In this document: one piece after another, positions 27,052 to 40,937 of the stretch
Position numbering within the stretch: the stretch's first letter is position 1
Layout of the letters: every line of letters starts with the position of its first letter
DNA from: Streptomyces sp. NBC_01478
GTDB taxonomy: Bacteria; Actinomycetota; Actinomycetes; Streptomycetales; Streptomycetaceae
Assembly (NCBI RefSeq): GCF_036227225.1
Contig: NZ_CP109444.1
Coordinates: forward strand, 8,475,501-8,539,500
Direction of reading: 5' to 3'
DNA: 64,000 bases
Program-made: the position numbers and the translations under genes
The notes under the pieces: generated by a model
What the model saw: only the letters and a program-made list of their open reading frames with translations
Database searches by the model: none
Told to the model about the DNA's origin: nothing

Positions 27052-27334
27052 ACGGGTGATTCGCAGTTGTGGCGGCTCCGGGCACACTGATCGGAAGCCT
27101 CCGGCGCCCGATGTGGCCCGAAACCACGGCCGACTTCTTGTCCTGTGGCGCGAAACCGTAAACCCTCTGACCTTCGCTCGAATGGGTGATCCGTTTCACG
27201 CTCGGCGAGAGGCGGTCAGTCGCACGTGGTGGGCTCGGTAGCATCAAGCACCGGCCCGGACGGGGGATCGAAGATCCCCTGAGCCGAGTACGCCATGGGG
27301 CACCCGTCCGCCGGTCAAGCAGCCGGAGGTGCCC

Positions 27335-29563
27335 ATGAGTGCGGAGGCCACGAACCCTGCGAGCCCAGGCCCTGTGATCAACACAGTGCCCCGCAGGAAG
27401 GCCCGCCCCCGGATCGACCTGCGCCGGCTCGGCCGGGCCGCCCTGCTCGGTCCCACTGCGCGCGACCGGCTGCCCGACGCCATCGGCCATGTCGCCGAGG
27501 CGCATCGCGCCCACTATCCCGACGCCGATCTCGAACCGCTGCGCCACGCCTGGGTCCTGGCCGAGTCCTCGCACCGCGGTCAGATGCGCAAGAGCGGCGA
27601 GCCGTACATCACGCACCCCCTCGCGGTGACCCTGATCCTCGCCGAACTCGGCGCCGAGACAACGACGTTGACTGCCTCCCTGCTCCACGACACCGTCGAG
27701 GACACGGAAGTGACACTCGATCAGGTCGGCAAGGAGTTCGGCGCGGAGGTGCGCTATCTCGTCGACGGCGTCACGAAGTTGGAGAAGGTCGACTACGGCG
27801 CCGCGGCCGAGCCGGAGACCTTCCGCAAGATGCTCGTCGCCACCGGCAGCGACGTCCGCGTGATGTCGATCAAACTCGCCGACCGCCTGCACAACATGCG
27901 CACCCTGGGCGTGATGCGCCCCGAGAAGCAGGCCCGCATCGCCAAGGTCACCCGGGACGTCCTCATCCCGCTCGCCGAACGGCTCGGCGTCCAGGCGCTC
28001 AAGACCGAACTGGAGGATCTTGTCTTCGCGATCCTCCACCCCGAGGAGTACGACCACACACGCGAGTTGATCGTCGACAACGCCTCCCGCGCGGACGACC
28101 CGCTCGCCGAGGTCACCGACGAGGTGCGCACCGTCCTGCGCGACGCCGGCATCCAGGCCGAAGTCCTCATCAGGCCACGGCACTTCGTCTCCGTGCACCG
28201 CGTCGCCCGCAAGCGCGGCAGGCTGCGCGGCGCCGACTTCGGCCGTCTCCTGGTGCTGGTGAACGAGGACGCGGACTGTTACGGCGTCCTCGGCGAGCTG
28301 CACACCTGTCTGAAGCCGGTCGTCTCGGAGTTCAAGGACTTCATCGCCGTACCCAAGTTCAACCTGTACCAGTCGCTGCACACCGCCGTCGCACACACGG
28401 ACGGCCAGGTCGTCGAAGTCCTCATCCGCACCCACCAGATGCACAAGGTCGCCGAGGCCGGCGTCATCGCGCTCGGCAATCCCTACGCTCCTCCTTCGGA
28501 GGAGCAGCAGGCCGCGAACGACGGCGAGCGCGCCGACCCCACCCGCCCCGGCTGGCTCTCCCGCCTCCTCGACTGGCAGGAGGGCGCGCCCGACCCCGAC
28601 ACCTTCTGGTCGACGCTCCGCGAGGACCTCGCCCAGGACCGCGAGATCACCGTGTACCGGCCCGACGGCGGCACCCTGGGCCTGCCCGACGGCGCGACCT
28701 GTGTGGACGCCGCGTACGAGCAGTACGGCGAGGACGCCCACGCCTGCATCGGCGCCCGCGTCAACGGCCGCCTGGCGACCCTCAGCACGGTCCTGAAGGA
28801 TGGCGACACCGTCCAGCTCCTCATGGGCCAGGACCCTGCCTCCGAGCCCTCCAGGGAGTGGCTGGAGCACGCGCACACGCCCGCGGCCCGGATCGCCATC
28901 CAGCGGTGGATCGCGGCGCACCCGGGGAGCGCCGACGGAGACGGTCCCCAAGGAGGGATTGCCCACGGAGAGGGTGCCCGCGGAGGGAGTGCCGAGGCGG
29001 ACAGGAGCGCGAAGCCGGCCGAGGGCGCGAAGGCGGACAACGGGGCGCAGAGCCATCGATCAGCGCCCCCCGCTTCCGAAGACACCCTGGACGGCTCCAC
29101 AGCACCGAGCCCGGCCACCCCCGTCGTGGACCAGCCCGGCGCGACCGTGCGGCTCGCGGGCTGCTGCACGCCCGTACCGCCCGACGAGGTCACCGGATTC
29201 TCGGTGCGCGGCGGGGTCGTGACCGTCCACCGCGTGGAGTGCAGCGCGGTGGCGCACATGAAGGGCGTGGGGCGCGCGGAGGTCGGTGTGCGCTGGGGCG
29301 ACACCACCGAGTGCCGGGTCACGCTGGTAGCCGAATCGTTCGGCCGCCCGCATCTGCTCGCCGATCTCACCGAGGCGATCGCCCTGGAGGGCGCGGAAAT
29401 CGTCTCGGCGACCGTGGAACCCCCGACCCAGCAACGCGTCCGCCACACCTACACACTCCAACTCCCGGACGCGGCCCACCTCCTGACCCTCATGCGGGCG
29501 ATGCGCAACGTACCGGGCGTCTACGACGTGAGCCGGGCCCAGCACCATACGGCGGCCTTCTGA
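27335..29563 (+). CDS. rshA: RelA/SpoT-homologue (p)ppGpp metabolism protein RshA
   Basis: A 742-residue RSH protein from ATG 27335 (CCGGAGG just upstream). The HD hydrolase domain is intact: HRGQMRKSGEPYITHP, LLHDTVEDT, KLADRLHNMRTL. The synthetase domain keeps VPKFNLYQSLHT and the VEVLIRT glutamate, but the usual RFKD motif reads EFKD, and the segment normally YDLxGIRV reads ADFGRLLV. TGS follows (ITVYRPDGGTLGLPDGAT). A disordered 100-residue Gly/Ala/Glu linker leads to a C-terminal CTPVPPD zinc-finger-like part and an ACT domain. In S. coelicolor rshA is the second RSH gene beside relA (recalled). Probably hydrolase-dominant here; this is inference. Confidence 0.9.
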   Translation: MSAEATNPASPGPVINTVPRRKARPRIDLRRLGRAALLGPTARDRLPDAIGHVAEAHRAHYPDADLEPLRHAWVLAESSHRGQMRKSGEPYITHPLAVTLILAELGAETTTLTASLLHDTVEDTEVTLDQVGKEFGAEVRYLVDGVTKLEKVDYGAAAEPETFRKMLVATGSDVRVMSIKLADRLHNMRTLGVMRPEKQARIAKVTRDVLIPLAERLGVQALKTELEDLVFAILHPEEYDHTRELIVDNASRADDPLAEVTDEVRTVLRDAGIQAEVLIRPRHFVSVHRVARKRGRLRGADFGRLLVLVNEDADCYGVLGELHTCLKPVVSEFKDFIAVPKFNLYQSLHTAVAHTDGQVVEVLIRTHQMHKVAEAGVIALGNPYAPPSEEQQAANDGERADPTRPGWLSRLLDWQEGAPDPDTFWSTLREDLAQDREITVYRPDGGTLGLPDGATCVDAAYEQYGEDAHACIGARVNGRLATLSTVLKDGDTVQLLMGQDPASEPSREWLEHAHTPAARIAIQRWIAAHPGSADGDGPQGGIAHGEGARGGSAEADRSAKPAEGAKADNGAQSHRSAPPASEDTLDGSTAPSPATPVVDQPGATVRLAGCCTPVPPDEVTGFSVRGGVVTVHRVECSAVAHMKGVGRAEVGVRWGDTTECRVTLVAESFGRPHLLADLTEAIALEGAEIVSATVEPPTQQRVRHTYTLQLPDAAHLLTLMRAMRNVPGVYDVSRAQHHTAAF

Positions 29564-29599
29564 CGCGCGGGCGGGTTTGAGCGCCGTCGGATCCACTGG

Positions 29600-29990
29600 G
29601 GGCACGCTCCGACCCCGAGCGCGCTCCGGGTGTTCCGGGGCTTGCGTTGGTCGTTAGTGAGCTCTGGTCTCTTGGGTCCTGGGCCCGGCTGTGAGCGGGT
29701 CGCAGTTCCTGAGCCATGTGCGGACGCTGGGGATTGGGTCGGCCGTGAGTGACCCTTGGCTTGCTGGTCGACGGGTTGCCCGTGAGCGAGCTCCGGCTCT
29801 TGAGCCACCTGCCGATGTTGGGCGGCCTCTGGCTCGCAGGGGTCTGCGCCGATCGCAGGCCAGCCTCGGCACCTGAGCCACGTGCCGACGCTGAGCGTCC
29901 TCTGGCTTCCTGGGGCTTGCGCCGCCCGTGAGTGAGCCCGGCCTCCTGAGGCACCTGCCGCCAGTGAGCCAGTCTCGGCGTCCTGGGGCG
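29600..29990. repeat. Degenerate tandem repeat tract (about 65-75 bp period) beside the transposon
   Basis: Four to five imperfect copies of a unit containing CTGAGCCAC, TGCCGACGCTG, CCTCTGGCTT, GGGGCTTGCGCCG and CGTGAGTGAGC. The period is not a multiple of three and no frame gives a believable protein. It ends exactly where the left terminal inverted repeat begins, and may be native intergenic DNA or debris from the element. Confidence 0.5.
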
Positions 29991-30032
29991 ATGGGGTGCC
30001 GGTAAGAACGCTGTCACCAGCCGCAAACGGCG
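29991..30032 (+). repeat. Left terminal inverted repeat of the Tn3-family element
   Basis: Begins ATGGGGTGCCGGTAAGAA and ends CCGCAAACGGCG. It is the reverse complement of 39207-39248 with a single C/T mismatch. The tyrosine recombinase stop codon lies 4 nt inside it. Confidence 0.92.
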
Positions 30033-30036
30033 AGGG

Positions 30037-31030
30037 TCACGTCTGGCGACGTGCGGCGGGGTCGCGTTCTGCGACGTGTCGGGCGACCGAGTCGACGCCG
30101 GGGCGGGCGTACCGCTCCAGGGAGCGGACGGAGGCGTGGCGGGAGCGTGCGAGCAGCATCGGGGTGGAGGTGCCGTCCTCGGCGTCGTGTGTCAGGGCAC
30201 TGTGACGTAGCCGGTGCAGGGTCCAGCCGTCCAGGTCCTCGATGTCCTCGGGTGAGGCGAGCGGGTTGGCCAGCAGCCGGGTCTTCTCCTCGAAGATCTC
30301 CTCAGCCCGGCGGTAGGAGAGTCGGGCCCGGCCGGTCTCCGGGCACACGTCTAACGTCGGCGTTCCGGCCGGTGCCTTGCGGTCGGTGAGGAACAGCGGG
30401 CCGCGGGTGCGTCGGCCGATGAGTCGGGGCAGCAACTGGGCGGTGCCGGACTGCCAGTGAATCCACTCGGTCGCCCCGCCCTTGGCGGTGATCTTCCCGC
30501 GCTTGTCCTGCGGGTACAGGTCTTCCACGTTCAGGCACAGCACCTCGTCGGCCCGTGCCTCGGACTCGTAGAGCATCTTCCACTGCGTCTTCTCCCGCAG
30601 GGCGACATCCAGGCGCCACAGGGCGGCGATCTGGTTTTCCGCCAGGGCCTTGGTGCGGTCCGGCGGTGCCGGCCGCCGCTCGATGCCGATCGTCGGGTCG
30701 CCTTCGATCCAGCCCTGTCGCTGCCACCAGCCGATCGTCTTGCGCGATGGACAGCTCCCGGTTGACGGTGGCGGCGTCCATCTCGTCCGCCCGCGCCGCC
30801 GCCAGCTTGGCCAGCACCTCCGGCAGCGCCGGATCGTCGATTGCGGCGACGGGGACGAGGGGCGGCTTCGCGCTCCGGCGGGCGGGTCCGGTCGGCGCCG
30901 GTTCACCGGCGAACATCCACCCCCACGTCGTCAGCGAGATCCTGTAGATCCGCGCGGACGACTTCGCGATACCCGCACCAGTGAGGTACCGCTCGACCGC
31001 CGCGATGTACGTGGCCGGAGGAGCGGACAT
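30037..31030 (-). pseudogene. TnpI-like tyrosine recombinase, frameshifted
   Basis: Reads from ATG 31030 (MSAPPATYIAAVERYLTGAG) with a SAM-like core-binding domain up to TVNRELSIA, then continues in another frame from KTIGWWQRQGWIEGDPT to the end. The catalytic domain is complete: first Arg in EARADEVLCL, HRLRHSALTH box, SRHASVRSLERYARP with the nucleophile Tyr. The break is at about 30742-30747, where GCGC replaces a GCGCGC expected from the protein, a 2-nt deletion. Intact, it would be a site-specific recombinase resolving transposition cointegrates at the site just upstream. It could alternatively be a sequencing error; the repeat context makes either possible. Confidence 0.8.
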
Positions 31031-31126
31031 GGGCACGACGCGGGCGCGCGGCAACCGCAACGCGCCCCCGCTTCCGAGTTCGGTCACTGGTTCGATCGCC
31101 ACGCCCGCCCCGTCCTCCCGGCGCTG

Positions 31127-31230
31127 CCGCAGTAAATGCGTACACCTCGCCCCGGCGGCCGGATTGCCCCGCCGCAGGTCGCGATGATCACGGTAGGGGT
31201 CCGCCGCAGTAAATCCGGTATTCACTGCGG
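31127..31230. promoter_or_regulatory. IRS-like recombination (resolution) site for the tyrosine recombinase
   Basis: CCGCAGTAAAT at 31204-31214 and ATTCACTGCGG at 31220-31230 form an inverted pair (10 of 11) around the 5-bp spacer CCGGT, a classic tyrosine-recombinase core. A third, directly repeated CCGCAGTAAAT stands at 31127-31137. Core plus accessory repeats upstream of the recombinase gene is the layout of the Tn4430/Tn5401 IRS. Confidence 0.72.
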
Positions 31231-31474
31231 AGCCATCCCGGCAGACCGCCGGTGAGCGGAAGTCCGATCAGCCGACCTCGAAGCGGAACGATTGCCATCG
31301 ATCTCCGCTGCGCCGTCGACCCTCGCGCCGACCGTAGACCTGAGCATTACGCAGTGGTACACCCCACCTGGCCGCAACTACACGAGGACAGAGCCGGTTC
31401 GACGACGTCCAGAGGCGGCGTCACGCCCAACGCGTTCCCGGCTCCCGTCCTCACGCGGGTACGGGAGCCGATTC
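31231..31474. other. Interval between IRS and tetR, no gene seen
   Basis: 244 nt that hold only the tetR terminator hairpin near the right end; short frames lack ribosome-binding sites. Confidence 0.4.
31439..31470 (-). terminator. Terminator of the transposon TetR regulator
   Basis: CGGCTCCCGT (31439-31448) pairs perfectly with ACGGGAGCCG (31461-31470), 4 nt beyond the tetR stop. Confidence 0.75.
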
Positions 31475-32125
31475 CTAGCGCGTCGCGTACGCGCGGATGA
31501 ACGCGTGGACTCCGTCGGCCATGGTCTGGCGGACCTTTTCCGGGTCGGCGGTGGCGGGGACCGGTTGACGTTCGTAGGCCAGGAGGACGGTCAGGGCGCT
31601 GAAGTGGTCGGCGGCCAGGCGTGGGTTGTCCGTGTCCAGGAGCCCGGCGCCGACGAAGTGAGCGATACGTTCCGCCAAGTCTTCCGACGCCGCTTCCGTC
31701 GCGAGATCGTCCGCGGTCGTCGGCGTCCGCAGGCGCTCCTGCGCGACGAGGGCGAAGGCGGCGGCGTAGTCGGCGGAGCCGACGATCGACGTACCGAAGT
31801 CGATCGCCAATGCCGTGAGCGCCTTCTCCAGTTGCGGCACCGTCGTGATCGCCGCGCCCTCGGGGAGATGCTCGTCGAGGGCGCGGCGGCTGGTGGCCAG
31901 CATCGACTCGGACGCGGCGGATAGGATGGCCAGGAAGAGCCGCCGCTTGTCGCCGAAGTAGTCGTACACGGTGCGCTTCGACACCTCGGCCCGGGCCGCG
32001 ACGGCGTCCATGCTGACGCGGTCCACCCCTTGATGTACGAACAGGTCCCGTGCGGCGGCGAGGATCGCCGTCCGCTTCTCCAGGGACCCCTCGCGCACCG
32101 TCTTCTCCGTACCAACAGCGTTCAT
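31475..32125 (-). CDS. TetR/AcrR-family repressor of the transposon cargo
   Basis: A 216-residue regulator. ATG 32125 follows GGAGG at the right distance; an in-frame TTG at 32137 overlaps that site and is rejected. The N-terminal HTH is canonical: RTAILAAARDLFVHQGVDRVSMDAVAARAEVSKRTVYDYFGDKRRLFLAIL. The ligand domain (residues 70-216) is of the AcrR/AefR C-terminal type. A 39-bp perfect palindrome lies between it and the divergent MFS gene, so it almost certainly represses both itself and the pump, with the pump substrate as likely inducer. Located within the Tn3 element. Confidence 0.88.
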   Translation of the reverse strand: MNAVGTEKTVREGSLEKRTAILAAARDLFVHQGVDRVSMDAVAARAEVSKRTVYDYFGDKRRLFLAILSAASESMLATSRRALDEHLPEGAAITTVPQLEKALTALAIDFGTSIVGSADYAAAFALVAQERLRTPTTADDLATEAASEDLAERIAHFVGAGLLDTDNPRLAADHFSALTVLLAYERQPVPATADPEKVRQTMADGVHAFIRAYATR

Positions 32126-32145
32126 TCCCACCTCCAAGGCCCACC

Positions 32146-32184
32146 CTACACCGTGCAGTGTACGTACTACACTGCACGGTGTAG
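32146..32184. promoter_or_regulatory. 39-bp palindromic TetR operator (17-bp arms, 5-bp spacer)
   Basis: CTACACCGTGCAGTGTA at 32146-32162 and its exact reverse complement at 32168-32184 flank CGTAC. It fills most of the 69-bp gap between tetR (32125) and the MFS start (32195), so binding must cover both promoters. Confidence 0.85.
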
Positions 32185-32194
32185 TGTGCTCGCC

Positions 32195-33655
32195 GTGACT
32201 TCAACAGCTACGGCCGCACAGGCCACGACGCCGCCGGTGACCGATCGCCGGCTGAACCTGATCAGCCTCGTCCTGGCCCTCGGAGTGTTCATCACGCTCC
32301 TGGACACGACGATCGTCAACATTGCCCTCGACCATCTGCGCACGGTGTTCGACGCCTCGGTCGCCCAGACGCAATGGGTCGCGACGGGCTACCTGCTGGC
32401 TTTCGTGTCGGTGATCCCGGTGAGCGGGTGGCTTTCCGAACGGTTCGGGGCGCGCAACGCCTGGATGTTCGCCGTGGGCGCCTTCCTCGTCGGTTCGCTC
32501 CTCTGCGGCCTCGCGGGTTCCCTGCCCGAACTCATCGCCTTCCGGGTGGTCCAGGGGATCGGCGGCGGCATGGTGATGCCGATCACGCTCTCCATCGTCA
32601 CGCGGGCAGCCGGCCCGGAACGCCTCCACAAGGCCACAGCCGCAGTCGCGCTCCCCGGACTGCTCGGCCCCATTCTCGGATCGGTGCTGGGCGGTGCCAT
32701 CGTGCAGTCGCTGAGCTGGCACTGGATGTTCCTCGTGAACGTGCCGGTCTGCCTCGTCGCACTCGTGCTCGGCCGGTTCCTGCTGCCCGCGACCGCCGGA
32801 CAGCGTGGCCACCGACTCGACGTTTCCGGCTTCCTTCTGCTCACGCCCGGCGTCGTCGGCGTCGCCTACGGCATAGGTGAGGTATCGGGAAAGGACGGCT
32901 TTGCCGCCGCTCGCGCCTGGCTCCCGCTCTTCATCGGTGTCGTACTGCTCGCCGCCTTCACGGTCCACTCCTTGCGCGCCCGTCGTCCCGCTCTCATCGA
33001 CGTACGCGTGTTCGCGCGGCGCAGCTTCGGCCTGAGCGGGGTCATCACCTTCGCGAGTGGGTTCTCGACCTACGCCCTGTCGTTCCTGCTCCCCCTCTTC
33101 TACCAGCAGGTTCGCGGCGAGACGGTGCTGCACACGGGCCTGCTGCTCATCCCGCAGGGACTCGGCACGATGTTCTTCGTCGTGGCCCTGCGCAACCTCG
33201 CGGCCCGTCTCGACGGCCGCTTCGTCGTCGCCGCCGGTGTGCTGCTGACCATGATCGGGACCGTGCCGTTCGCCCTCGCGGACGCACACGGCAGAACAGC
33301 ACTACTGCTGGCCGGGCAGTTCGCCCAGGGACTCGGCTTCGCCGCCACCACGTTCCCGGTGATGGCACTCGCCCTTTCGAGCCTGAGCCACGACGAGACT
33401 CCCCGTGGCAGTGCGGCGTTCAGCGTCGTGCAGCGCGTCGGCGCGCCCTTCGGCGTCGCGGTCATCGCCGTGATCCTGCAGAACCGGCTCGCCGGTGCCG
33501 CCACGGCGACGGACGGACTCTCGGCGTTCTCCGGAACGTTCTGGTGGATCGTCGGCCTCAGCGCCGTCCCGCTTGTCCTCGCCTTCTTCGTTCCGTCACA
33601 GAAGCGCACCGAGCCCGAGCCGGAGCCCACAGCGCCCACCGTCCCGGCGCAGTAG
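32195..33655 (+). CDS. MFS drug efflux transporter (EmrB/QacA, DHA2 type)
   Basis: A 486-residue, about 14-helix transporter from GTG 32195; GTG 32186 is an alternative. There is no Shine-Dalgarno in the 11 nt between operator and start, so the mRNA is probably leaderless. Family marks: ALGVFITLLDTTIVNIAL (motif D1), QTQWVATGYLLAF, SGWLSERFGARNAWM (motif A), FRVVQGIGGGMVMP (motif C region) and SWHWMFLVNVPV. DHA2 pumps export drugs by proton antiport. It leads an operon-like run of three cargo genes under the TetR operator. Substrate unknown. Confidence 0.9.
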   Translation: MTSTATAAQATTPPVTDRRLNLISLVLALGVFITLLDTTIVNIALDHLRTVFDASVAQTQWVATGYLLAFVSVIPVSGWLSERFGARNAWMFAVGAFLVGSLLCGLAGSLPELIAFRVVQGIGGGMVMPITLSIVTRAAGPERLHKATAAVALPGLLGPILGSVLGGAIVQSLSWHWMFLVNVPVCLVALVLGRFLLPATAGQRGHRLDVSGFLLLTPGVVGVAYGIGEVSGKDGFAAARAWLPLFIGVVLLAAFTVHSLRARRPALIDVRVFARRSFGLSGVITFASGFSTYALSFLLPLFYQQVRGETVLHTGLLLIPQGLGTMFFVVALRNLAARLDGRFVVAAGVLLTMIGTVPFALADAHGRTALLLAGQFAQGLGFAATTFPVMALALSSLSHDETPRGSAAFSVVQRVGAPFGVAVIAVILQNRLAGAATATDGLSAFSGTFWWIVGLSAVPLVLAFFVPSQKRTEPEPEPTAPTVPAQ

Positions 33656-33756
33656 ACGGACACATCCGGCCCGAAACGCGTCGGCCGCACCCGCCACCGG
33701 CGCATAACCCACCGTCGGTCAGGCCCGCCGGCCCCTCCATGGGAGAGGAATCACCC

Positions 33757-34461
33757 GTGCCCCAAGCACCCGCCCTCATCGGCAGCATCGTCGCGTCCGC
33801 TCTCGGGCGCCGAGCCCACGTGCTCGGCCTCCATAAGCCCGCCCCTGGCTTCCTGGAACTGCAGCTGCGCGCCGCCGCGCCGCCTGGCGGCTGGCACCCC
33901 GGCCACGAGGTCCAGTTCCGCGTCGCCCCCACCCTGGGTCGCCGCTACACGGTTCGGACAGTGAGCGGCCCAGACTCCGAGCACATCAGCATCCTCGCCG
34001 CCACCGACGCCTCAGGTCCCGGCACGGCGTGGATCCGCCGCCTGTGCCCCGACAGCCGCACGACGGTGCTGGCCGGCCGGCACCGGCCGCTGCGCGAGAA
34101 CGGGATCCGCCGCCTCTACCTCGGCGACGGCTGCTCCCTCGGCACCCTCGACGCCCACGCCCAGCACAGCGACGCATCGATCGTGACCGTGGAGGTACCG
34201 GCGAACGCCGTCGCGCCCCTCGCCGACCGCTGGCCCCGGTACAACTTCCTGCCCGCAGCAAAAGCGCCTGGTGACGCACTACAGACCTGGCTGGAACATG
34301 CCCTCACGGGCGGCGAGTTGACGGATATCGACGGCGCTCTGCTGCTGGGTCACGCCCAGTCCATCCAGCGCCAGCGGCGTGCGCTCATCGACCACCAGAA
34401 CCTGGCGCGCCGCGCCGTCACCACAAGGCCGTACTGGGCCACCGGCAGGCAGGGGCTCTAG
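33757..34461 (+). CDS. Siderophore-interacting protein (SIP) family flavoprotein
   Basis: A 234-residue protein; GTG 33757 has GGAGAGGAA 6 nt upstream. The FAD-binding RxYTxR motif is RRYTVRTV near residue 64. Further family marks are RRLYLGDGCSLGTL (the GDxTALPAL position of SIP reductases), RWPRYNFLPAA and the C-terminal LLLGHAQSIQRQRRALIDHQNLARRAVTTRPYW (usual GEAxxxRxxRRxL...YWRRG). SIP proteins are NAD(P)H-dependent ferric-siderophore reductases. In this operon, between an efflux pump and a FAD monooxygenase, a role in supplying electrons or processing the pump's substrate is conceivable. It is slightly shorter than usual but complete. Confidence 0.78.
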   Translation: MPQAPALIGSIVASALGRRAHVLGLHKPAPGFLELQLRAAAPPGGWHPGHEVQFRVAPTLGRRYTVRTVSGPDSEHISILAATDASGPGTAWIRRLCPDSRTTVLAGRHRPLRENGIRRLYLGDGCSLGTLDAHAQHSDASIVTVEVPANAVAPLADRWPRYNFLPAAKAPGDALQTWLEHALTGGELTDIDGALLLGHAQSIQRQRRALIDHQNLARRAVTTRPYWATGRQGL

Positions 34462-34732
34462 CGCCCCGGCACGAGAACGAGCCGCAAAAGCTGACGGGTG
34501 GTAGCGCCGGCCTCATGCGTCACTTCCACGACCACAAGGAAATCCCCGTGCCCCCGTCCCGTGCGGAGCAAGACTCCGCGGGGCCCGCCTGCCTGTGGCC
34601 TGCGGAGATCGACTGCGCACCTTCGGGCGCCGCTCCGCACAGCGGCCCACCGCGCCCCCAAAAACAAGGAACCTCAAGTTCGGCATCTGGCTGCCCGACG
34701 CATCGACGCGGCGCGGCCAGGAAGGATCGACC

Positions 34733-35929
34733 ATGACCGAGACACACCACCACCTCCCCAACCGCTCCGTTCTCGTCTCCGGCGCGAGTATTGCCGGCCC
34801 CGCGGTCGCCTATTGGCTGCACCGCTACGGCTTCGACGTCACCGTCGTCGAGAAGGCGGGCACTGTGCGCGGCGGCGGCTACCCCATCGACATCCGCGGC
34901 ACCGCCCTGGAGGCGGTGCGGCGCATGGGCCTCCTGCCCCAGCTGCAGAAGGCTCACGTCAACACCCACCGCATCACCTTCCTGGATGCCGACGGCGGCA
35001 CCGTCGCCGCACTGCGCCCCGAGAGCATGGCCATCGGCGCCGACGGTGACCTCGAGGTGCGGCGCGGCGACCTGACCGAGATTCTCTACGACGCCGTCCG
35101 CGACTCTGTCGCATTCATGTTCGACGACTCCATCGCCGCCCTCGACGACCGCTCCGACGGCGTCGAGGTGACCTTCCACAGTGGTGTCCGCCGCACCTTC
35201 GATGTCGTCATCGGGGCCGACGGACTCCACTCCAACACCCGTCGGCTGATCCTTGGTCCCGAGGAGCGCTTCCACCACTGTCTCGGCGCCTGTTTCGCAG
35301 GCTTCACCCTGCCCAACCACCTCGGGCTTTCCTCCGAGGGCCTGCTGTGGAACACCCCTGGTCGGTCCGCCGCCCTCTATGCCGTCGGCTCCGGCCAGGA
35401 CGTGTTCGGGCTGCTCACCTTCAGGCGCTCCGACCCGCCCTTCGACGCCTTCCGCAACCCCGACGCGCAGCGCGAGCTGCTCGCCGCCACCTTCCCGGAC
35501 GACCGTTGGGAGATTCCGCGGATGGTCGCCGAGATGCGATCCGCCGAGGACCTGTTCTTCGATGTCGTCAGCCAGATACGCATGACGAGCTGGTCCGCGG
35601 GCCGGGTCGCGCTGATCGGCGACGCCGCCTATGCGCCGTCCTTCCTGACGGGGCAGGGCACCAGCCTCGCCCTTACCGGCGCCTATGTGCTGGCCGGCGA
35701 GTTGGCCGCGCATGCCGACCAGGCCAATGCGTTCGACGCCTATGAGCGCGTGATGAGGCCGTTCGTGACCCTCAACCAGGCGCTTGCCAACGAGGGCGAC
35801 ACGGAGCTCTTCCCCTCCACCGAGCAGGCCCTCCAGCAGCGCAACGCCGCCTTGCGCACTCTCTCCGCCCTCCCCGCCGACCGGCCGCACGCCGAGTACA
35901 GCGCTCTCACCCTTCCCGACTACCACTGA
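34733..35929 (+). CDS. FAD-dependent monooxygenase, PHBH/TetX-like
   Basis: A 398-residue class A flavoprotein from ATG 34733 (AAGGA upstream). The N-terminal dinucleotide fold SVLVSGASIAGPAVAYWL has GxSxxG in place of the usual GxGxxG, a known variant. The DG motif is VVIGADGLHSNTRRL, and the GD motif VALIGDAAYAPSFLTGQGTSLALTGAYVLAGEL contains the helix that closes on the isoalloxazine. Relatives hydroxylate aromatic metabolites, and some inactivate antibiotics (TetX, rifampicin monooxygenases). Its placement on a transposon behind a TetR-controlled pump argues for a resistance function, unproven. The 271-nt gap upstream holds no convincing gene and may have its own promoter. Confidence 0.82.
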   Translation: MTETHHHLPNRSVLVSGASIAGPAVAYWLHRYGFDVTVVEKAGTVRGGGYPIDIRGTALEAVRRMGLLPQLQKAHVNTHRITFLDADGGTVAALRPESMAIGADGDLEVRRGDLTEILYDAVRDSVAFMFDDSIAALDDRSDGVEVTFHSGVRRTFDVVIGADGLHSNTRRLILGPEERFHHCLGACFAGFTLPNHLGLSSEGLLWNTPGRSAALYAVGSGQDVFGLLTFRRSDPPFDAFRNPDAQRELLAATFPDDRWEIPRMVAEMRSAEDLFFDVVSQIRMTSWSAGRVALIGDAAYAPSFLTGQGTSLALTGAYVLAGELAAHADQANAFDAYERVMRPFVTLNQALANEGDTELFPSTEQALQQRNAALRTLSALPADRPHAEYSALTLPDYH

Positions 35930-36074
35930 CCCACGGCTTCCGGTTCGCCTTCTTCACCTCCTGGGCTGGGCGAGGCTTGCGGTGATCAGCTCCTGCCCCG
36001 GCCGCCCCCGCCCGCCCATGCGGTCGAAGCCGTGCACCAGGCCCAAGCCACTCGGCGGTGGCGCCTGGTCCGGT

Positions 36075-39000
36075 TCATTCGTTCTCCACAGTGGATCGCG
36101 CGGACTGGTCAGTCGGGGCCCTGGGCACCGGTACGGAAGCTGCGGCGAGGTTGAGACGGGCGCCCATGTCGAGGTTCACCTCACCGTACGGCCGGACGTG
36201 GGACCAGAAGAGCGGGGTCAGGCCGCGCCGGTCGGCGGGTGTGAGGAGGTCCGCCCACTCCGGTTCGCCGAGGACGTCCTGGAGCATCAGGGTGTTCACG
36301 TAGACGAGAGCCGATTGCAGAATCCGCAGGCACAGCACGAACATCTCCTGCTCGTCGCGCCTGTTCGAGACGATCTCGCCACCCTTGCCGTAGGCGACCA
36401 CGGAGCTCGCGCCGTTGGAGGACTCCATGACGTTCAGGCCCTCCTCGATCTCCCGCTGGAGGTCGCGCAGTCGCAGGTAGCGGGCCACGAAGATGGTCTT
36501 CTGGGCGCGGCCGACCTCCAGCATCGCCGCGTAGGTGGGGTGAGAGGCGTTGCGGGTGAAGCGGCGCGGGATCATCGCCTCCGTGGACGCGGTCCGGGTC
36601 CGGATCGCGGTCGCGTACTTGATCATCTGGTCGTACTGCTGGGTGATGAGTTCCCAGCGGATCGGGCGGGTCAGCGCCGGAGTCAGCTGCGGGTACGCGT
36701 CCGGTTCGCCGGCCACCGGCCGGTACAGCTTCACCTTGTTGATCCGCTTGATACGCGGCAGCAGGTCGAAGTTCAGCAGCCTCGTGATGCCAAACCCGAT
36801 TTCCGACTGGCCATGACTGTCCGTGTAGTTGGTCTCCACGTCCATCGTGGTGCCGTGCCGCATCGCGCCCTCGATCATCGCGGCGACCTCGGACGCGGTC
36901 AGTTGATCAGCTGGGAGTGGATGGCCAGCGACTTCTTTTCCACGTGCCAGTAGATGAGCACCCCACGTCCGCCGTAGCGCGAGTGCCACTCCGTGAAGAG
37001 GTTCCGGTCGTACGCGCGTACGTGAGTGGAGTCGGAGGCGACCGCCGTCGAGCCCTGGCCCCACAACTGGGCGCTGCGGGCGGCGAAGGTGGCGTTCGCG
37101 ATCTGGATGGCGATGGCGCGGGCGGCCTCGGCGGACAGGTACCGGCGGCGTACGTAGCGCAGTTCGTCCTCGGTGTGGCCGTGGCCGCCGGAGGCCACGG
37201 CTTTGATCCCAGTGTTCGTGCCGTACGCGTAGATCACCAGCAGTAGGCGTTCGGCCAGCACTTCCGCCGAGAGGCTGCCGCCGCCGGAGACGGAGGTGAC
37301 CGCGTCCAGGCAGCCGGTGCGCAGCACCGCTTCCTTCAGCATGTCGACAAGCTGCACAACGCCCCAACGCCCCAACGCCTCTGCACCTCGGCCTTGACCC
37401 TGCGCAGGTTGCGCGGCTCGGGCTGGGCCTCGGCCGCCGTCAGCCGGATCACCCCGGACTTCCGCTCGGCGATGTCCAGCCAGGACAGCTTCGGCATCCC
37501 GTCGTTGAGCAGGGTCAGCTCGGCCGTCATCTGCTCGCGCAGCTCGTCGACGAACACCGCGGCGTCCAGCGGCTTGCGCAGCTCCCGGTAGTTCTCCGCC
37601 CGCCTCGCCTCGAAGTCCTGCGGCAGGTCCTCGTCCGGGTTGCGCCACTTGTCGGCGCCGACCACCCAGATCTCCTTGCACTTGAGCTGATCGCGCAGGG
37701 CCTGGAAGGCGACGACCTCGTAGACCATGCGCACCACCCGGCGCCGGCCTCGCTTGTCGGTGCGGTGGACGACCTCCGCCCAGTCCCCGCCCATCGCCTT
37801 GTGGACCGGCACCGTCTCACCCAGCGGGTAGTACGTCGTGTTCCCCGCATTCGCGTACCGCGCCACCAGCGCCAAGGCCTCGATCACCGGCCGGTGCGTG
37901 TGGTTGGAGGAGCGGAACTCCAGCACGTCCAGCAGTTTGATCAGCCCGCGCCGGTAGTGGTTGGTGTACGACGCTTTCAGCGTCGTCTGCACCGTGCTCC
38001 GGTAGACCGGACCGCGGGTCTTTAACTCGTGCACCAGCTCCCGCAGCGTCGCCTCGCCCCCGGACACCGCCGGGAACACGACCTGGCGGACCGTCCCCTC
38101 CGGGGTGTCGAGCGACGCCTCGGTGAGCTTGAAGAGGATGTTCTCCTTGCCCGACACCTTCTTGAACGCGTTGATGAGCTGCTCGGTGACCTTCTTCTCC
38201 GCCCGCGCCCCGATCCGGTGCACCGTGGAGATCAGCAGCTCCACGAGCGTGTCGGTGATCTCCCGCTCCCGTTCGTGCAGCAGTGCGGCCAGCAAGGTCA
38301 CCCGCAGCGCCACCGGGTGCGTCCGCAGGTGGGAAGGCGACTCCACCGCGGCCCGCGCCCGCCAGCCGGCCACGACCTTCGGCGCGACGTCGATGAACAG
38401 ATCCCGTGGCAGGCCGATCGCCCGCACCGCCAGGAGCTTGTCGATCTCGGTGAGCATCGTCTCCAGGCTCACGTTGCCCGGCGCTTCCTTGACCTTCGCC
38501 AGCACCGGCGGCGCGTCCTCGCCCTCCGTACCGCCGCCCGCAGGTCCGGCGTCGTCTGGTCGGCGCCGGCCACCAGAGCCACGATCTGCTCGATGCTCTC
38601 CACGGTCAGGCGCGAGGAGATCAGGGCAGTCAGTGACTCCTCGGCCGCTCGCAGAGCGGCCCCCACAATGCGGTCGCACCGGCCCGATGCGGGAGGCTCG
38701 ATGCTCTCCGTGCGGCAGCGCACCAGCAGTTCCACCCGGACCTGCTCGGGCCTGCGCTCCTTGTGCGCGACGTGCACGGCCAGATACGCCGTCAGCTTCT
38801 CCGCGTCCGCGACGCTGCACTCACGGAAGCCGAGGTGCTCCCGGATCTGCGCACGGTGGTACTCGACCGTGCGGCCCGTCCAGTCGTAGGACTCCAGCTC
38901 CAAGGCGGGAACCTGTACCTGACGGGCGACGAACTCCACGGCCGCACCGGGCAGTTCTGCCCGGTTTCGGGGAAACCGGCCGTACTGCGTGTAGAACTTC

Positions 39001-39152
39001 AGCAGCACGGCGAACCCCAGTCGCGTCGCACCACGCTTGCCGGACACGAGCGCCTGCTCGTCCTTCAGCAGCGTCCAGTGCTCGACGAGTTGGTCCAGGT
39101 CCAGCGGAGTACGGGCCACGATCGACGATCGTCCCCGCAGAGCTTCACCCAC
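36075..39152 (-). pseudogene. Tn3-family transposase TnpA with three frameshifts
   Basis: About 1,020 codons in four frame segments. 39152 to about 38530 carries the N-terminal DUF4158-type domain (DLDQLVEHWTLLKDEQALVSGK). About 38530 to 37370 is the central part. About 37370 to 36905 contains the first catalytic Asp region (VASDSTHVRAYDRN) and VEKKSLAIHSQL. About 36905 to 36075 holds the second Asp (NYTDSHGQSEIGFG) and the last Glu region (NRRDEQEMFVLCLRILQSALVYVNT). Breaks: an indel near 38530; a 7-nt tandem duplication of GGGGCGT near 37365; a 1-nt loss near 36905 creating a TGA. All DDE residues survive in pieces. No single full-length product is possible without three recoding events. 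Confidence 0.88.
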
Positions 39153-39206
39153 CGCAGCCGTACGGCCCCGGACTCACCCACACGGGTGACGCCCTCCCAA
39201 GATCAC

Positions 39207-39248
39207 CGCCGTTTGCGGCTGGTGACAGCATTCTTACCGGCACCCCAT
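39207..39248 (-). repeat. Right terminal inverted repeat of the Tn3-family element
   Basis: Mirror of 29991-30032 with one mismatch. tnpA starts about 55 nt inside it. The base next to it outward begins GAAGCACG, the C-rich native flank. Confidence 0.92.
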
Positions 39249-39407: not shown

Positions 39408-40937
39408 ATGCTGCTCACCCCTCGCACCGGTACGACCGGCATCGGCATCCCCCGTACTCGCGCCGGTGATCCGGTCTCACCGCCGCGCACCAGGAACTCC
39501 CGACGGCTGAAGGCGGCGCTGCTCGCCTCCGCCGTGTCCGTCTGTCTCGTCGCCGCGAGTGCTCCGCCCACGCCCCTGGGGGTCGGTGACCGGCTCTTCC
39601 CGACCCTGGGCAACCCGGGGTACGACGTGGCGTCGTACGACCTCTCGTTCACGTATCCCGGAAGCAACACCAAGCCGCTCCAGGCCGTCACCACCATCGA
39701 CGCGTGGACGACCGAGACGCTGGACCGGATCAACCTCGACTTCACGCACGGCACCGTGGACTCGGTCGAGGTCGACGGGCGGCCCGCGACCTTCGCCAGT
39801 GCCGGTGAGGATCTGGTCGTGACCCCGGAGAGGTCGATTTCCGAAGGGAGCTGGACGCGGATCACCGTGCGGCACACCAGCGACCCCGTGTCCGCCAAGG
39901 GCCAGGACGGCGGCTGGGTACGCACCAAGGACGGGCTCGCGATGGCCAACCAGGCCGACGCCGCGCACCTGGTGTTCCCGTGCAACGACCATCCCTCCGA
40001 CAAGGCGCTGTTCACCATCAGGGTCACCGCCCCCAACGCCTACACGGCCGTGGCCAACGGACTGCCGGCCGGCGTCGACAAGGTCGGCGGGAACACCACC
40101 TGGACGTACCGCACCCAGCACCCCATGGCCACCGAACTCGCCCAGGTGTCCATCGGCCGTTCCGCCGTGCTGCACCGAACGGGACCGCACGGACTGCCGA
40201 TGCGCGACGTCGTGCCCGCAAAGGACGCCGACCAGCTCGAACCGTGGCTCAAGAAGACCCCCGACCAGATCGCCTGGATGGAGGGCAAGGTCGGCCGGTA
40301 CCCCTTCGAGACGTACGGGCTGCTCATGGCCGACGCGTCCACCGGCTTCGAACTCGAGACGCAGACGATCTCTCTCTTCGAGAGAGATCTCTTCACCGAG
40401 CCCGCCTACCCCAAGTGGTACGTCGAGTCGATCATGGTGCACGAACTGTCCCACCAGTGGTTCGGCGACAGCGTCAGCCCCCGCACCTGGTCCGACCTGT
40501 GGCTCAACGAGGGACACGCCACCTGGTACGAGGAGCTGTACGCCGAGGAGAAGGCGCACCGGCCGATGGAGACACGCATGAAGGCGGCCTACGCGGCCTC
40601 CGACCGCTGGCGCGCCGCCGGAGGACCGCCCGCACTCCCCAAGGCACCCGCGCCCGGCCAGAAGATCAGCATCTTCCGCCCGAACGTCTACGACGGCGCC
40701 GCCCTCGCCCTCTACGCACTGCGCCAGGAGATCGGCCGCCCGGCCTTCGAACGCCTGGAGCGCGCCTGGGTGCACATCCACCACGACAGCACGGCCACCA
40801 CGGCGGACTTCGAGGAACTCGCCTCCGCGATCTCCGGCCGCGACCTGAGCGACTTCTTCCAGGCCTGGCTCTACGGCGAGAAGACCCCGCCGATGCCGGG
40901 GCACCTGGACTGGAAGTCGCAGGCACCCGCGAAATAA
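39408..40937 (+). CDS. Secreted M1 family metallopeptidase
   Basis: A 509-residue protein from ATG 39408. A basic N-terminus and a hydrophobic segment (LKAALLASAVSVCLVAASAPP) form a signal peptide. The zinc site is H345-E-L-S-H349 with E368 (LNEGHATWYEEL), the HExxHx18E arrangement of gluzincins. The exopeptidase GAMEN-like region is degenerate around DASTGFELETQTISLF. M1 enzymes remove N-terminal residues; at about 510 residues it lacks the large C-terminal ERAP domain, as in short streptomycete forms. It is 159 nt from the right end of the transposon, whose insertion may have replaced its upstream region. Confidence 0.88.
   Translation: MLLTPRTGTTGIGIPRTRAGDPVSPPRTRNSRRLKAALLASAVSVCLVAASAPPTPLGVGDRLFPTLGNPGYDVASYDLSFTYPGSNTKPLQAVTTIDAWTTETLDRINLDFTHGTVDSVEVDGRPATFASAGEDLVVTPERSISEGSWTRITVRHTSDPVSAKGQDGGWVRTKDGLAMANQADAAHLVFPCNDHPSDKALFTIRVTAPNAYTAVANGLPAGVDKVGGNTTWTYRTQHPMATELAQVSIGRSAVLHRTGPHGLPMRDVVPAKDADQLEPWLKKTPDQIAWMEGKVGRYPFETYGLLMADASTGFELETQTISLFERDLFTEPAYPKWYVESIMVHELSHQWFGDSVSPRTWSDLWLNEGHATWYEELYAEEKAHRPMETRMKAAYAASDRWRAAGGPPALPKAPAPGQKISIFRPNVYDGAALALYALRQEIGRPAFERLERAWVHIHHDSTATTADFEELASAISGRDLSDFFQAWLYGEKTPPMPGHLDWKSQAPAK

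Follow-up and report, generated by a model that had tools for sequence, protein, structure and literature searches.

A decayed Tn3-family transposon in Streptomyces sp. NBC_01478 and a tyrosine recombinase-res cassette that may pass between transposons

A stretch of 64,000 nucleotides from Streptomyces sp. NBC_01478 (NZ_CP109444.1, positions 8,475,501 to 8,539,500; hereafter the window) holds a 9,254-bp block between the RelA/SpoT-family gene rshA and an M1 peptidase gene. By its sequence the block is a real, decayed Tn3-family transposon, and the window copy a relic that has decayed or been rearranged. We put the probability at roughly 80% that it is a defective member of a Streptomyces lineage, termed type A here, in which a tyrosine recombinase would resolve cointegrates at a palindromic res site and recombination at that site would also exchange cargo between transposons. 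A preliminary description, made from the letters alone, had already proposed a Tn3-family element with a Tn3-type transposase and a tyrosine-recombinase resolution module, and matches to PF01526 and PF00589 together with the res-like palindrome bear this out.

Results

The block has the ends and gene order of a Tn3-family transposon

The sequences at 29991-30032 and 39207-39248 form an inverted pair that is 98% complementary over 42 nt. The preliminary description had taken all 42 bp, with their GGGG ends, as the transposon's termini. Since the 5-bp target duplications of relatives lie directly outside GGGG, we place the true termini at GGGG (29993) and CCCC (39246) and regard the outer AT as a chance match; the pair stands, while its outer 2 bp fall outside the repeat, and 40-bp inverted repeats with one mismatch enclose the block. 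In the 12.12-Mb single-contig genome of the strain, the 40-mer end (up to three mismatches) was found at these two places only, and a reversed control pattern gave 0 matches. That the ends might be a mere intergenic repeat was rejected on the basis of these two places and of the target duplications at copies elsewhere.

As read from the sequence, the element combines 38-bp ends, 5-bp duplications in its relatives, a transposase at one end, a recombinase and res at the other, and cargo between them. From the left, the order is end, recombinase, res, TetR regulator, major facilitator superfamily (MFS) transporter, a frame without a known family, flavin adenine dinucleotide (FAD)-dependent monooxygenase, tnpA and end (Table 1). 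Both the recombinase gene and tnpA lie on the minus strand, the former reading toward the left end and the latter inward from the right end. PF01526, the Tn3 DDE transposase profile, matched two tnpA fragments (1e-73 and 1e-36) and DUF4158 a third, and the Tn3-transposase profile NF033527 matched all four tnpA frame pieces. The recombinase matched PHROGs as "integrase" only, and no PDB match was found at E 0.1.

The preliminary description had not noticed that this copy is defective: tnpA is split into four frame pieces by three frameshifts and the recombinase gene into two pieces by one, while intact copies of both exist in relatives. Because both genes are broken, the window copy cannot move or resolve by itself. 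We also sought an exact 5-bp target duplication at the window copy and found none (flanks GCGAT and ATGAA).

Type A elements carry a serine or a tyrosine recombinase in the same place

The type A end (up to three mismatches) was present in 31 of 392 Streptomyces genomes, the strain's own included. A survey of 41 fetched loci plus the window gave 23 end pairs, window counted, of which 11 had exact 5-bp duplications and 12, the window among them, did not. Copies of the element elsewhere had been named in advance as support, and these counts supply them; by these features the type A lineage is a true Tn3-type element.

We then tabulated what adjoins the type A ends, setting 28 duplicate ends aside. 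Of the remaining rows, 7 have a tyrosine recombinase beside the end and 18 (16 loci) a serine recombinase; another 18 adjoin the lineage's own tnpA, 1 adjoins a different tnpA, and a further 18 have none of these genes as neighbour. Elements with the serine recombinase (L003, L063, L067, L071 and others) have the same ends and a close tnpA, and hold their resolvase in the same place beside the far end; the difference is that the serine recombinase replaces the tyrosine one. Judged from sequence, then, the resolvase beside the type A end is of either type in the same position. In a tree of tnpA ends (15 rows, of which 11 carry a resolvase label and 4 do not), serine and tyrosine types are intermingled, and the branches with support require three changes of type or more; many branches lack support, and about 40% of shuffles cluster the labels at least as strongly. 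The row nearest to the window's tnpA end is serine-type L003, at 94% identity.

Three short type A pairs (L062, L066 and L074; 1.1, 3.6 and 1.4 kb) have exact 5-bp duplications and no transposase or resolvase matches beyond fragments, and look like non-autonomous derivatives. An annotated type I-E cas operon on a linear plasmid of S. anulatus lies about 370 bp from one end of a type A element (L005, 11124-19126).

The recombinase and res recur in Tn3 lineages with other ends

Upstream of the recombinase gene lie a 27-bp palindromic core and, 77 bp from it, a single half-site (searched for within 160 bp, at most one mismatch); a resolution site had been picked out in the preliminary description. 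Together with the recombinase they form a predicted site-specific resolution system. Similar cassettes, with recombinases 85-95% identical to that of L006, were found inside duplication-flanked elements that have other ends. L152 (9,780 bp, GACAC duplication) has a TnpA 58% identical to type A, and L154 (6,474 bp, CTGTT) a TnpA with only a 30% partial match to it; in L166 (7,982 bp, GGAAA) the TnpA is 49% identical to that of Tn4556, and L168 (7,041 bp, TGCTC) holds a degenerate cassette. By these sequence comparisons the tyrosine cassette occurs in type A and at least three other Tn3 lineages, each with ends of its own. The L154-type end stands directly beside the recombinase 3' end in 7 of the 19 loci read there.

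The site also occurs alone. L136-L144 are solo res sites, and a dienelactone hydrolase gene (245 aa, 91-100% identical) adjoins res in all of L136-L145 as well as in L154, L160 and L165. At L137, L138, L139 and L144 it belongs to a unit of about 1.2 kb that has Tn3-like ends (GGGGT..CCGAGATACGCGCC) on both sides and neither transposase nor recombinase; from its sequence this unit is a transposase-less cassette. We had considered that solo res sites might be chromosomal dif-like sites, an idea rejected because most of those fetched adjoin the dienelactone hydrolase gene in the 1.2-kb unit, with Tn3-like ends at four. Exceptions are L135, which has a perfect core, and L148; their neighbours are ABC-transporter or response-regulator genes, and the 10 kb fetched for each contains no recombinase. 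L145, in the strain's own genome (C1:5503000-5513000), is a second damaged site, with two weaker res cores about 1.7 kb apart and the dienelactone hydrolase gene; it also has a fragment of a recombinase (70%), and its two type A ends form a 671-bp pair (four mismatches each, no duplication).

Homology between loci stops at the outer edge of the res core

To locate where similarity between loci ends, we listed the genome and plasmid matches that reach res and tallied their ends by hand. Among the matches listed, 42 of 60 genome alignments and 11 of 17 plasmid alignments stop at 31228-31230, within 2 bp of the outer edge of the core; one further genome alignment runs 8 bp beyond it and 7 stop earlier. 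For the sequence outside, we used the 32 loci with a recombinase match (the Tn4556-type loci L098 and L101 not counted). Four of these (L060, L075, L145 and L170) have no core beside the gene or only a fragment and were omitted, leaving 28; L150, identical to L009 for 1,300 bp, contributes no context of its own. Grouped by the 100 bp outside the core, the 28 loci show 13 contexts. With one representative taken from each, identity averages 91% within the core and 57% across the 3 bp that follow, then 29% over bp 4-10, 29% over bp 11-30 and 26% over bp 31-60. Loci with the same end differ in context: 7 loci with the L154-type end have 6 contexts, and 5 loci with the type A end have 4. This drop in identity at the edge of the core suggests exchange at res.

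A model of resolution and exchange, and its alternatives

We propose that an intact copy would move, as expected from its family, by TnpA-driven replicative transposition, which would join donor and target as a cointegrate. The tyrosine recombinase would then act at the 27-bp cores of the two res copies, with the half-site assisting, and recombination between them would separate the cointegrate. In the window copy the ends and res seem undamaged, and proteins supplied in trans might still act on them. The comparison of loci further suggests that the recombinase-res cassette passes between transposons, and that recombination between the res sites of co-resident transposons would swap what lies beyond res, namely the cargo.

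Several observations weigh against this model. Among the matches listed, 10 of 60 genome alignments continue 56-167 bp past the res edge and 6 of 17 plasmid alignments continue 24-59 bp past it. One context is common to loci with different ends (the window, L008, L157, L166, L168 and others), so the cassette can travel with about 100 bp beyond res and does not always stop there. By itself, exchange at res cannot carry the recombinase into a lineage that has other ends, and the border between the recombinase gene and the transposon end is equally abrupt, with no known site there. In most of the 7 type A rows that have it, the tyrosine type is damaged, the window copy has four frameshifts and no target duplication, and the function of recombinase and res is read from sequence only. 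These points give some weight to an account in which the abrupt junctions are ordinary deletions and insertions beside a selected site: resolution depends on res, so break points within it would not survive, and both the alignments that pass the edge and the abrupt 3' border of the recombinase are what such events would leave. We regard this as a real possibility, though short of an even chance. Ordinary events should scatter beyond the edge, whereas most of the alignments listed end no more than 2 bp from it, at the point where 13 unrelated contexts start; site-specific exchange at res would explain the junctions better than scattered events.

The two ends of the window block could instead stem from separate insertions or from recombination between copies, which would make the block a composite and not one transposition unit. 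Consistent with this, the block lacks a target duplication, its tnpA end is nearest to a serine-type element, and the sequence beside it (about 0.45 kb to the left, 0.1 kb to the right) is unmatched in relatives; the left piece contains a degenerate 73-bp repeat and is present once in the genome. We nevertheless consider a composite origin unlikely, as the order and orientation of the parts match those of the duplication-flanked L064 and L060, and the lack of an exact duplication is common in the family (12 of 23 pairs). It is more doubtful still that the frameshifts are sequencing errors in an intact element. The assembly is a single contig of unknown method and the four indels fall in two genes, but the cargo frames and neighbouring genes are open, and the missing target duplication also points to decay.

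Relation to known transposons

Tn4556 of S. fradiae is described, in the available part of PMC6403206, as a Tn3 element with 38-bp ends, 5-bp duplications and a 324-aa PF00589 resolvase. We located it in G386 by means of a published primer (L098). Its frames of 324, 258 and 345 aa agree with that text and AGGTC stands on both sides; the transposase frame is 1,018 aa against the 994 given there from a later start. The Tn4556 resolvase is 35% identical to the intact type A recombinase of L006 (E about 1e-43), and the two systems share a 27-bp palindromic core, the same outer arms and one half-site before the recombinase. With a common genus, end length, duplication size and resolvase family, the window element might be thought a diverged Tn4556. 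We consider this very improbable, and rejected the identification: the Tn4556 TnpA is about 22% identical to the intact type A TnpA of L003, the ends are unrelated and the cargo differs, so that of the features of the Tn4556 group only the PF00589 resolvase with its palindromic core is found here, without a close TnpA or the same ends. The layouts also differ in order and direction. In Tn4556, res lies between the end and a recombinase that reads away from the end, whereas in the window element res is found on the cargo side of a recombinase that reads toward the end.

The Bacillus elements Tn4430 and Tn5401 likewise belong to the Tn3 family and pair a tyrosine recombinase with a core of inverted repeats. 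As given in the available part of PMC7157771, their TnpI acts with an irs made of the core IR1-IR2 and two direct repeats, DR1 and DR2, as against one half-site in the window, and tnpI and tnpA are colinear in Tn4430. The Tn4430 TnpA matched the L003 TnpA at 196 bits (over its length) and the Tn4556 TnpA at 368 bits. No tyrosine recombinase was present in three plasmid stretches that carry Tn4430-like transposases. One odd host for a Bacillus-type element is Klebsiella grimontii, of which a plasmid record (L172) contains a transposase 75% identical to a piece of that of Tn4430, beside a collagen-like gene. The solo-res dienelactone hydrolase units resemble in build the TIMEs and TIME-RES, Tn3-derived units without a transposase, one of which has a portable resolvase module of the tnpR type (PMC4133298, in the part available). 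The window element differs from these in keeping both tnpA and the recombinase gene, although both are broken, and TIME-RES in having a tnpR-type module.

A Tn3-family element with a tyrosine resolvase had been thought possibly undescribed in Streptomyces. That part does not hold, as Tn4556 already provides one (PMC6403206, in the part available). New, as far as our searches go, are the type A lineage, the swap between serine and tyrosine recombinases, the presence of the tyrosine cassette in lineages with different ends, and the junctions at the edge of res. In a 2020 library of 190 Tn3 elements, TnpI-type resolvases are listed for three only, Tn5401, TnBth4 and Tn4430 (PMC7157771, in the part available). 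Tn3 elements with a tyrosine resolvase other than TnpI are numerous in Streptomyces genomes and plasmids.

We give even odds to the broader proposal that the Streptomyces tyrosine recombinase and res form a portable cassette, common to four or more Tn3 lineages that differ in their ends and exchangeable for a serine cassette in the same position, and that recombination at res swaps cargo between co-resident transposons, the resolvase doubling as a cargo shuffler with an integron-like evolutionary effect. If this is true, the junctions at the edge of res would reveal the way in which these elements exchange cargo, and exchange is predicted to occur inside the 27-bp site. In the open-licence literature we found no account of a serine-tyrosine swap in Streptomyces or of such junctions. 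Kholodii reportedly proposed in 2001 that serine resolvases can bring about shuffling at res.

Cargo and insertion site

The cargo had been called resistance-like, and TetR, MFS and FAD-monooxygenase genes are indeed present; a role in resistance is suggested by similarity only. The FAD enzyme scored 285 bits against the 550-bit cut-off of the NCBIfam tetracycline destructase family NF033476, and a proven destructase was rejected on that score. Its best solved-structure matches are among the Tet(50)-Tet(56) destructases, the nearest being Tet(55) (255 bits) and Tet(56) (245 bits), and entries deposited as 6-hydroxynicotinate 3-monooxygenase match almost as well as Tet(55). Homologues of the cargo occur in G076 (the TetR, hypothetical and FAD genes together) and G334 (the MFS and hypothetical genes), where the end search, at up to three mismatches, gave no type A end match.

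Table 1. Features of the transposon relic (positions within the window)
Feature	Position	Strand	Basis or remark
Tn3-family transposon relic	29993..39246	.	9,254 bp, without 5-bp target duplication
38-bp terminal inverted repeat, resolvase end	29993..30030	+	0 mismatches to family pattern
Tyrosine recombinase gene, one frameshift between N-terminal and catalytic parts	30037..31102	-	PF00589 on 30037-30906; two tblastn pieces of a 355-aa intact relative
Accessory half-site of res	31127..31137	+	Half-site in 25 of 29 loci with recombinase match and core
27-bp palindromic core of res, putative recombination site	31204..31230	.	Homology between loci stops at outer edge
TetR-family regulator	31475..32137	-	PF00440, PF14246
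Inverted repeat between TetR and MFS genes, possible operator	32142..32188	.	Arms 32142-32162 / 32168-32188, 95% complementary
DHA2-type MFS efflux transporter, start not fixed	32207..33655	+	TIGR00711, 304 bits against cut-off of 230
Open frame, real gene probably starts later	33544..34461	+	DNA matches to region in G076, G334; no match in Pfam or NCBIfam
FAD-dependent monooxygenase, tetracycline-destructase-like, below family cut-off	34733..35929	+	Profile and structure matches
Tn3 transposase gene tnpA, three frameshifts	36075..39152	-	Four frame pieces; PF01526, DUF4158; pieces 88-95% identical to intact relative in L003
38-bp terminal inverted repeat, transposase end	39209..39246	-	1 mismatch to family pattern

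The block lies, as the preliminary description placed it, between rshA (27329-29563, behind dapF) and the M1 peptidase gene (39408-40937, followed by hflX). We searched the right flank in 61 genomes, the strain's own included, and examined 19 relatives' loci. About 0.45 kb to the left and 0.1 kb to the right of the block had no match in these 19 loci. The left piece (about 0.44 kb, 29550-29992, between rshA and the transposon) contains a degenerate 73-bp tandem repeat, and no second copy of the piece was found in the strain's own genome. In the window the matched flanks are about 9.8 kb apart; in 18 of the 19 relatives' loci they are only 17-292 bp apart, the 19th (L055) having one flank only. 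An insertion is therefore shown, though without an exact empty site, given the unmatched sequence on both sides. Relatives in which rshA adjoins the peptidase gene had been proposed as a check on the transposon reading, and a gene block fixed in all relatives, or ends that are only an intergenic repeat, as grounds for abandoning it; the flanks proved adjacent in these 18 loci, and the ends to be those of a mobile element with duplications elsewhere.

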